Source: Terriglobales bacterium (GTDB taxonomy: Bacteria > Acidobacteriota > Terriglobia > Terriglobales > Acidobacteriaceae). Taken from it: a stretch of 56,603 nucleotides of DNA. Position 1 is the first letter of the stretch, and each line of letters starts with the position of its first letter. A program made the position numbers and the translations under genes. The notes beneath the pieces were generated by a model. The model was not told the origin of the DNA, ran no database searches, and saw only the letters and a program-made list of their open reading frames with translations. The stretch is from positions 1 through 56,603 of the forward strand of contig DASPRM010000115.1 in NCBI GenBank assembly GCA_035624455.1. Direction: 5' to 3'. This document shows, in pieces, positions 35,936 to 37,694 of the stretch.

Positions 35936-36952
35936 TCACTTCCACGCAACACCGAGCTGGTAAGTGGTTAGCAATTCCCGCATCTCCGAATCTGTCAGAT
36001 CCCTCTTCCTGCCCTGTGCATCGACAATCGTAATACTTCTAAGCTCGCGCAGATCCCTCTCTCGGAATCGAATGGTCCCTGATCGATCGGCCTCCGGTGC
36101 TCGGAGCGGTCCGCAAGAACCCATGCAAGGTGGCTGAAACTCGCACCCGTCAAGATAAGCGGCAGCGATGGGTTGATTTTCCGGCGTATGAAGTTGAAGC
36201 ATATAGTCGTGCTCTGGCAGCGTCCATAAGCGTCTGACAGTGACCTCATGCCCTTTGTTGACCACCAGGTCATTAAATGACGCAAACGCCGTTCCGGTGG
36301 GACCGCCCGCTACTTCCTCGAAGTAGCCCACGCTAACCCCTAGCTGAGAATCGGGCGCGATTACGTTGATCTCTCCGCTAGCGTTGGTGACGAATTCTCC
36401 CAGCGGTATCCCGAAGAGGGAGACCACAAGCCTCTCCCCTGCCAACGGCTTCCCGTCTGGATAGATAAATCGAATCGTCCGCGTTGAGGGGCGTGGCAGC
36501 ACCAGTTTGCCGTCGACGAAATGTCCGAGACTCCTCAGAGCGGTATGCCAGTCTTCACCACGGTTCTCCTTGGCTAACGGGGTGGACAGGTAGACTGTGC
36601 GGAAATGCTTTAAATACTCGGGCCATTGAGCAGCCCAGCCATAGGCAGCATCCGTCTCAAATGAGACCGGCGCTTCAACCGCATTCTCTGAAATGGCCAG
36701 CAGAAGCTTGTAATCGAAGGCCTGCTCCCAATATTGCGGGAATTCGATGTTCTTGCGTTCTTCGAATCTTCCCTTACGGATCGTGCCAACCAGAACTGCC
36801 TGATAGGCGCCCCAGCGGTTGGTGATCAACCAGGCCTCGCCACTCATCACAGGATGCTTCTCATCTCCGAAGAAAATCTTTAGCGGATGCTCAATCCCAT
36901 GAAGCGGGAGAAGCGTAGCCAGCAGGAAAGCAAGAATTCTCGTCGATTTCAC
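35936..36952 (-). CDS. Secreted protein with a carboxypeptidase-regulatory-like segment
   Basis: 338 residues from the GTG at 36952 (VKSTRILAFLLATLLPLHG), set by the signal peptide; the frame runs further upstream but overlaps the selenoprotein gene end. It is a mixed protein: residues about 40-150 unknown, then a beta-sandwich with FIYPDGKPLAGERLVVS-LFG and ITIVDAQGRKRDLTD, and two Cys motifs CEFQPPCMGSCG that could form disulfides. Function unknown. It starts 22 nt after the deiodinase-like selenoprotein and is surely cotranscribed with it; both act outside the cytoplasmic membrane, so a joint redox role is possible. Confidence 0.7.
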   Translation of the reverse strand: MKSTRILAFLLATLLPLHGIEHPLKIFFGDEKHPVMSGEAWLITNRWGAYQAVLVGTIRKGRFEERKNIEFPQYWEQAFDYKLLLAISENAVEAPVSFETDAAYGWAAQWPEYLKHFRTVYLSTPLAKENRGEDWHTALRSLGHFVDGKLVLPRPSTRTIRFIYPDGKPLAGERLVVSLFGIPLGEFVTNASGEINVIAPDSQLGVSVGYFEEVAGGPTGTAFASFNDLVVNKGHEVTVRRLWTLPEHDYMLQLHTPENQPIAAAYLDGCEFQPPCMGSCGPLRAPEADRSGTIRFRERDLRELRSITIVDAQGRKRDLTDSEMRELLTTYQLGVAWK

Positions 36953-36974: not shown

Positions 36975-37694
36975 CTAGCGCGCCACCTGCTCCAGCATCT
37001 TGCCCAGCACATCTGGTTTGAAGCCAAAAGGCCCGGGTTTGCTCTTGTAGGCGAGGTTACCCTTCACATCGATCAGGTATAAGCGGTCGGGCCAGCCGGT
37101 ATAGGCGACCTCGGTTGTGTTCTGGAAATCGTCGATCAATGCAGGAAATTTAATCCCCAGGTTGCGTACGCAACTGCCGGCGATGTTTGCGCGTTCATCA
37201 AGATTCCTGGGGCTGGCAAACACCACCTTGTCCTTAATATTGCTCTGCATCTGCCACACGTCGCTGGGGTGGGCTTCCTGGATGTACACCGCGTAGAAAG
37301 CAACTTTGTCTTTGTACTGGTCGTAAAGCTTGTTGAGGGCGGGAACCTCCCGCCGGAATGGTGGTCAGGTGTAGCTTCCGAAGACCAGTACGACCGGTTT
37401 CTTCTCGCGGAAGGAAGACAGCTGCACCGAATCGGATTTGTCCAGCGTATGCAGCTGAAAATCCGGAGCAGGGCTTCCTACTTCCAGGCGCCCAGCCCGG
37501 GCGTCGGTCCACAGGGTCTCAAACGGCAGCACCAGGAAAGAAATTACCGGCATATGCGACATGAAGTGCCCAAACTTCTCCGGAGACTGCCGCATGGCAT
37601 ATGCCAGAACTGCGGACATCGCCAGCCATAAAACGAACAGTACGAGTACGACCCGTTTCAGGACCGGTAGGGATTGCTGCCATTTCTGACGCAT
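36975..37694 (-). CDS. Iodothyronine-deiodinase-like selenoprotein (UGA-coded Sec110)
   Basis: One 239-residue gene split by an in-frame TGA at 37365-37367. The N-terminal half has a membrane helix (about 15-35) and ends ...GSPAPDFQLHTL...VVLVFGSYT; after the TGA comes PPFRREVPALNKLYDQYKD and YAVYIQEAHPSDVWQM, then WPDRLYLIDVKGN and KSKPGPFGFKP. This follows vertebrate deiodinases feature by feature: the GSxT-U-P-F active site, the YIEEAHASDGW motif with its essential His, and the C-terminal PERLY...GPW. The protein is a thioredoxin-fold reductase anchored with its active site outside. A hairpin with a GGU loop follows the UGA (SECIS). Bacterial homologues are known; substrate and iodide specificity are not. 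Start chosen as ATG 37694; no clear ribosome site. Confidence 0.9.
37338..37367 (-). promoter_or_regulatory. SECIS-like hairpin next to the UGA-Sec codon
   Basis: Minus strand: UGA (37365-37367), 10 nt, then GGCGGGA-GGU-UCCCGCC, a 7-bp stem with a 3-nt loop beginning GG. Bacterial SECIS elements place a small apical loop with a GG/GU at 16-18 nt after the UGA; here the loop G is 17 nt after, as in E. coli fdhF (18 nt). It would recruit SelB-tRNASec. Confidence 0.8.

Follow-up and report, generated by a model that had tools for sequence, protein, structure and literature searches.

Two adjacent open reading frames (ORFs) on the minus strand of a contig from a Terriglobales bacterium (assembly GCA_035624455.1, contig DASPRM010000115.1) raise the question of whether the TGA lying between them terminates a protein or encodes selenocysteine (Sec) and, in the second case, what the resulting enzyme would do. 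The window, i.e. the whole stretch of DNA analysed, spans 56,603 nucleotides. Its frame analysis reveals that positions 37694-36975 (minus strand) constitute a single 239-codon reading frame, interrupted only at the TGA 37367-37365, as the preliminary description had proposed when it joined the two ORFs through this codon. The read-through translation product is 239 aa long, with Sec as residue 110 in the motif GSYT-U-PPF. The features considered here are the following:

36975..37694, minus strand: gene for the deiodinase-like selenoprotein, 239 codons and a TAG stop, with one TGA read through (translation, PF00837, NF038285 and phmmer matches, TGA in 80/80 of the relatives kept).
37596..37652, minus strand: residues 15-33, a predicted transmembrane helix at the N-terminus with a predicted N-in orientation (hydropathy and charge; helix 2-34 in the model).
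36987..37496, minus strand: thioredoxin-fold deiodinase-like domain, residues about 67-236 (Pfam match, model and structure searches).
37365..37367, minus strand: UGA for selenocysteine, residue 110 in GSYT-U-PPF (same TGA in relatives).
37338..37354, minus strand: bacterial SECIS hairpin, 7-bp stem 37354-37348 / 37344-37338 and loop GGU 37347-37345 (folding against null models, codon conservation across relatives).
37191..37277, minus strand: deiodinase-type loop, residues 140-168 (EAHPSDVW...PRNLDER), with low model confidence at 142-159 (alignment with Dio, model).
35936..36952, minus strand: downstream neighbour with a GTG start, 338 aa, 22 nt after the stop, not part of a conserved unit.

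The joined protein matches the Pfam family T4_deiodinase (PF00837) over residues 18-236 with 105.9 bits (cut-off 27, E 2.6e-30). Its best sequence matches among solved structures, obtained with phmmer, are deiodinase 3 (4tr3, E 2.9e-20) and deiodinase 2 (9h48, E 3.4e-18), and the resemblance to vertebrate deiodinases noticed from the sequence alone is borne out by these scores. The AhpC-TSA and Redoxin families also exceed their Pfam cut-offs, PF00837 scoring about 57 bits above the peroxiredoxin families. The NCBIfam deiodinase family protein model NF038285 aligns with residues 70-231 at 197.5 bits, which is below its cut-off of 250, and only model positions 176-337 of 347 are matched, the front half not being shared.

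When 84,980 species genomes were scanned, 456 relatives came up, and the best 80 were kept and examined; all 80 are titled as Acidobacteriota groups. The TGA occupies the Sec codon in 80/80 of these best relatives, and the independent genomes exclude a misread Cys codon or a sequencing error at this position. No Cys form was seen either among the best 80 of the 456 relatives or among the 17 related genomes found to carry the gene (see below); one of the two search patterns of the scan was written with Cys at the Sec site, so that Cys forms were not disfavoured. The clade therefore has, on this evidence, an apparent need for selenium. The part of the protein beyond the TGA is the better conserved one: residues 111-230 are on average 73% identical to the window protein versus 51% for residues 67-109 (ungapped, n=79), which refutes the notion of homologues ending at the TGA with an unconserved second half. 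At the level of the phylum, PF00837 was detected in 24/297 genomes (E 1e-8), and among the 28 matches listed, 20 carry one TGA inside while the remaining 8 without TGA belong to other branches or have a different front part.

A hairpin just after the UGA had been pointed out in the preliminary description, and it is indeed present, weak in the window alone and strong across relatives. It consists of GGCGGGA-GGU-UCCCGCC and begins 10 nt 3' of the UGA, a distance that the preliminary description likened to that in E. coli fdhF. Compared with shuffled sequences, the window hairpin by itself is modest (z -1.3 for 48 nt, -1.6 for 41 nt and -3.4 for 81 nt), and no Rfam family reaches its threshold over it. 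The summed folding energy of 16 related sequences (L027 left out) amounts to -180.6 versus -100.6 (sd 11.3) under a synonymous-codon null, with 0/500 null sets as low. The codons tell the same story at conserved residues of 81 sequences, where R115 is encoded by CGG in 79/79, E116 by GAG in 80/80 and V117 by GTT in 75/76. No other synonymous positions vary so little as these three, the mean relative entropy elsewhere being 0.81 over 42 codons (p 1e-4). Sequence L108, whose TGA is followed by a run of N, was retained in the TGA count and in the codon entropy, its shifted codons being scored as mismatches, and was left out of the hairpin-pair count, the identity means, the catalytic-residue alignment and the analysis of linkage on the tree.

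Hairpin pairs were counted on 112 Sec sequences, reduced to 101 distinct ones as some contigs are present in two collections. The loop is GGU in 89 of the 101 and GGC in 6, and neither of the two is found in L032, L124, L125, L129, L132 and L146. The closing pair A-U is replaced by C-G in L128, and in L030 and L031 the stem is rebuilt around an unchanged loop. The element is less regular at larger distances and over larger segments: only 72/126 pair cells hold in the window register among 18 distant members, a competing pairing outdoes the hairpin over 51 nt in 7/17 sequences folded, and two more, L027 with its run of N and L032 with a shifted hairpin, do not show it in the window register.

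Decoding of the UGA requires a dedicated apparatus, and the absence of selABCD genes had been named in advance as an outcome that would overturn the selenoprotein reading. The source genome, 97.7% complete with 4.39 Mb in 166 contigs, possesses the entire set: a tRNA-Sec with anticodon tca (66.4 bits) and, by profile searches, selB (351 bits), selA (558 bits) and selD (360 bits), all above cut-offs. Its SelD (L012, G000 C95) has its own in-frame TGA near the start and, after it, a 7-bp stem capped by a GGU loop; this TGA sits where the catalytic Cys/Sec presumably lies. The gene with its TGA is carried by 17/61 related genomes, the source included, at E 1e-20 or better, and three of these 17 carriers harbour more distant forms (L030-L032). 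A tRNA-Sec was detected in 16/17 carriers versus 26/44 non-carriers (Fisher p 0.012, not corrected for relatedness). No tRNA-Sec was detected in 19 genomes: the TGA form is nevertheless present in one of them, G024, which is 75% complete, and in the remaining 18 nothing at all matches at E 1e-8 or better. As a separate observation, the source genome contains a formate-dehydrogenase-like match with one in-frame TGA (G000 C75:71286-72647), below the family cut-off, and similar matches occur in G351 (C7:213767-214504) and G352 (C22:456344-457081); these may possibly represent a further selenoprotein.

Since synonymous variation within the gene is lowest at CGG-GAG-GTT, we reject two ORFs or an error and accept a selenoprotein. 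That the TGA is a real stop, separating two ORFs or the halves of a decayed gene, is very improbable: the locus does consist mechanically of two ORFs and the window hairpin alone is weak against shuffles, but the TGA kept in all 80 relatives examined (the best 80 of 456), the higher conservation beyond the TGA than in the stretch preceding it, the frozen SECIS codons and the Sec machinery of the genome speak against this option, which is rejected together with sequencing error. The window gene is thus almost certainly a selenoprotein gene. Sequence evidence shows its gene structure, Sec codon, SECIS and the machinery, and likewise the predicted fold and conserved site treated below. Such a gene would be split by gene callers that halt at TGA.

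The earlier claim of a selenoprotein therefore stands; the kind itself is not new. Zhang et al. (2005; PMC1088965) report deiodinase-like proteins with Sec and with Cys from the Sargasso Sea and suggest a redox role, and since deiodinase-like bacterial selenoproteins were described in 2005, the window gene belongs to a known kind. It shares with that system the PF00837 domain, a Sec residue in a bacterial gene and a bacterial SECIS; the difference lies in the marine metagenome with its Sec and Cys forms, compared with an Acidobacteriota clade that showed Sec alone among the best 80 of 456 relatives. Reviews of 2022 and 2026 (the latter PMC13188914) give the family motif as UxxC and a table of 2008 has a dash, while the window protein reads UPPF and has no second Cys in the motif. 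The 2026 review lists the family among those identified by bioinformatics. Three selenoprotein families are attributed to Acidobacteria in a passage of PMC1794560 that does not name them, and three known selenoprotein genes to Occallatibacter riparius in one of PMC12013277, again with unnamed families; the accessible part of PMC5029168 does not mention Acidobacteria. Searches of open-licence full texts found no functional study of a bacterial member. New within the literature searched are the Acidobacteriota clade with only Sec, the frozen SECIS codons, the Pro replacements described below and the linkage to sel genes.

The membrane helix announced before the domain was recovered both by hydropathy (residues 15-33) and in the structural model (helix 2-34). 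Its orientation was addressed on 81 proteins, four of which have too little sequence before the helix; in the 77 scored, the flanking charges favour N-in in 71, with 6 ties and 0 N-out. Because the charge bias indicates N-in, the thioredoxin-fold domain is placed in the periplasm, and we infer this side for the catalytic part of the protein. In sister forms, the domain is preceded by what resembles, by eye, a signal peptide in L030 and a lipobox in L032.

The AlphaFold model, built from 47 sequences, has a pLDDT of 82.5 and a pTM of 0.81, with residues 142-159 of the loop under 50. In structural comparisons the top Z belongs to mouse Dio2 (18.5; 165 residues aligned, rmsd 3.6, 27% identity); a Bacillus oxidoreductase reaches 17.6, ResA 17.5, AhpE 17.4 and Dio3 17.2. 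Ranking by Foldseek E-value puts a ResA-type protein (4nmu) first, Dio2 second and Dio3 16th. Fold alone cannot single out deiodinases because the Bacillus oxidoreductase, ResA and AhpE lie within about 1 Z of Dio2. With ResA/TlpA and the peroxiredoxin AhpE, the window protein shares the thioredoxin fold and a near-tied Z, and differs from them by the lack of CxxC and by its deiodinase-type loop and EAH motif. The membrane-anchored periplasmic ResA is presumably a topological parallel as well.

In the active site, Ser107, Thr109, Tyr137, Glu140, His142, Trp147 and Arg168 are invariant in 79/79 aligned relatives, in keeping with the active-site and essential-His likeness to deiodinases read from the sequence at the outset. 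The counterparts of the Dio catalytic residues were assigned from the accessible parts of three papers (PMC11592359, PMC9141512, PMC7506546). UPPF is invariant in 47 aligned rows, and no CxxC of the ResA/TlpA type is present. The protein thus resembles DIO1-3 by its fold, S-x-T-U-PPF, Y-x-x-E-x-H, the loop Trp, the GP motif and a single N-terminal membrane helix. It differs from them by its bacterial SECIS, its predicted periplasmic domain, the lack of Cys at the distal Dio position and Tyr108 (78/79) at the position of the proximal Cys. Two further differences affect residues linked with thyronine handling in Dio3: the position of His219 (His174 in Dio1) is Pro162, invariant in 47 aligned rows, and the second His is absent; the position of the gate residue Phe258 is Pro202 in 79/79, and the gate Phe is absent. 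The Phe258Pro replacement is reported to lower Dio3 activity. Pro220 is found in 75/79 at the position of Dio3 Arg275, the basic residue for the carboxylate of the substrate, and Lys/Arg in 63/79 at residue 219, one position before, where Dio1 is said to have Arg. Because the positions of Dio3 His219 and Phe258 are Pro, a thyroid-hormone-like substrate is doubtful; the chemistry looks kept and the thyronine pocket changed. Cys175 is present in 79/79 of the clade and could act as a resolving partner within it. It is not a general resolving residue because it is absent from several sister Sec groups.

Taken together, the product probably acts as a selenol reductase in the periplasm, with a chemistry like that of deiodinases. 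Sec would be inserted at residue 110 by the ribosome with the help of tRNA-Sec and of SelB at the hairpin just past the UGA, and the single N-terminal helix would anchor the product in the inner membrane, the thioredoxin-fold domain lying on the periplasmic side. In a deiodinase-type site composed of Ser107, Thr109, Tyr137, Glu140, His142 and Trp147, the selenolate would then attack a small electrophile, a substrate class suggested here in place of thyroid hormone. A thiol partner would re-reduce the oxidised selenium, possibly through the Cys175 of the clade. Two narrower assignments, a selenoperoxidase and a dehalogenase, are special cases of this selenol-reductase reading.

A periplasmic peroxiredoxin-type selenoperoxidase reducing peroxides is a tentative candidate. 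The peroxiredoxin signature is PxxxT/SxxC, and the window protein offers it incompletely, with Ser107 at -3 but Leu103 instead of Pro at -7. The scores of AhpC-TSA and Redoxin above cut-off and the near-tied Z of AhpE (17.4), a 1-Cys peroxiredoxin, speak for this assignment, as does the peroxiredoxin motif that deiodinases are said to carry in the accessible part of PMC11592359; the advantage of about 57 bits of PF00837 over the peroxiredoxin families argues against it.

A reductive dehalogenase, whose selenolate would abstract the halogen from a halogenated aromatic (a soil organohalogen) as animal deiodinases do, appears unlikely. The invariant residues listed above, together with Sec110 (79/79), would form its active-site and proton network, the deiodinase-type loop is retained, Lys/Arg prevails at residue 219 as noted for Dio1, and the Cys form is unseen among the best 80 of 456 relatives and the 17 carriers. 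Against these points stand Pro162 and Pro202 at the positions of Dio3 His219 and Phe258, with the reported effect of Phe258Pro, and none of the eight neighbour clusters scanned with Pfam points to dehalogenation. In its full form, this reading is an improbable one: soil Acidobacteriota would possess a reductive dehalogenase that depends on selenium, is anchored in the membrane and faces the periplasm. It would need neither cobalamin nor flavin to apply the deiodinase mechanism to halogenated aromatics of natural origin, and would embody the chemistry from which the thyroid-hormone deiodinases of animals were recruited. The periplasmic selenol reductase is the safer reading.

Phylogeny bears on the last point. 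A first tree of 53 rows contains long branches (ResA, L132, L032 and others); a second one of 36 rows was computed without ResA and 16 other rows, and L130, L131 and L142 are in neither. The mouse deiodinase fragments group, in the reduced tree, with a second set of Sec sequences composed of L120-L125, L129 and L031 (99/95), and their joining the window clade is not rejected (AU p 0.153). Descent of the animal deiodinases from the window clade is unsupported by these trees, which sample two mouse fragments and one bacterial phylum only. Members of this second Sec group end with PER and mostly GxxGPF. The many orthologues of the window clade, some of them beside Sec machinery, open a direct way to test what these proteins do and what role was ancestral to the animal enzymes, and two of the orthologues come from named species with strains, Acidicapsa dinghuensis 4GSKX and Edaphobacter/Tunturiibacter lichenicola X5P2.

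Gene neighbourhoods were compared across the same best 80 of 456 loci, where flanks are uneven (more than 3 kb before the gene in 65/80 and after it in 61/80). Neighbours are mostly unconserved. The sel genes are the exception: no more than 3 kb separates selB from the gene in 10/80 loci (L076, L082, L088, L089, L090, L092, L093, L098, L111 and L114), with selA also present in 8/10, selD in 6/10 and tRNA-Sec in 5/10. These loci constitute a small island of selenocysteine genes, seen mostly in Acidobacteriaceae and also in one MAG titled Bryobacteraceae. SelA and SelB of L093, as well as SelD of L111 and L114, were compared with profiles, the other sel calls being made by similarity to these. 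The order in L093 is tRNA-Sec (opposite strand), selD, selA, selB and the deiodinase-like gene; in L092 (Edaphobacter, now Tunturiibacter, lichenicola) tRNA-Sec directly precedes the gene and a TGA-bearing formate-dehydrogenase-like match occurs within 5 kb. Linkage is found in 5/43 loci having 5 kb on both sides and requires four changes on the tree. It is absent in 20 stretches from other genomes, several of which are short and one of which (G004) is the contig of L041.

Apart from the sel genes in these 10/80 loci, the neighbours disclosed no functional partner. The largest neighbour cluster (16/80) is, by its one scanned member, an outer-membrane beta-barrel protein (PF25183). The 338-aa downstream neighbour is possibly co-transcribed with the deiodinase-like gene; it matches no Pfam family at E 0.01, and a homologue was found neither at E 1e-10 among 60 relatives nor at E 1e-3 in the relatives' loci other than the window's own stretch. 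Its start resembles a signal peptide. A mobile origin was considered and discarded: at E 1e-8, phages gave 0 records and plasmids 2, both below 32% identity.

The source genome also encodes a Cys paralogue (L015:1426-2337, G000 C103) of 303 aa with the motif GSATCPFT and a PF00837 score of 60.6 bits; selB is located near it, with two ORFs between, one of which encodes a peroxiredoxin. A long Cys form (GSYSCPNF) was also observed in L133, in a 591-residue frame where repeats resembling TPRs by eye precede the deiodinase-like domain. The titles of several relatives mention peat soil, palsa or bog.
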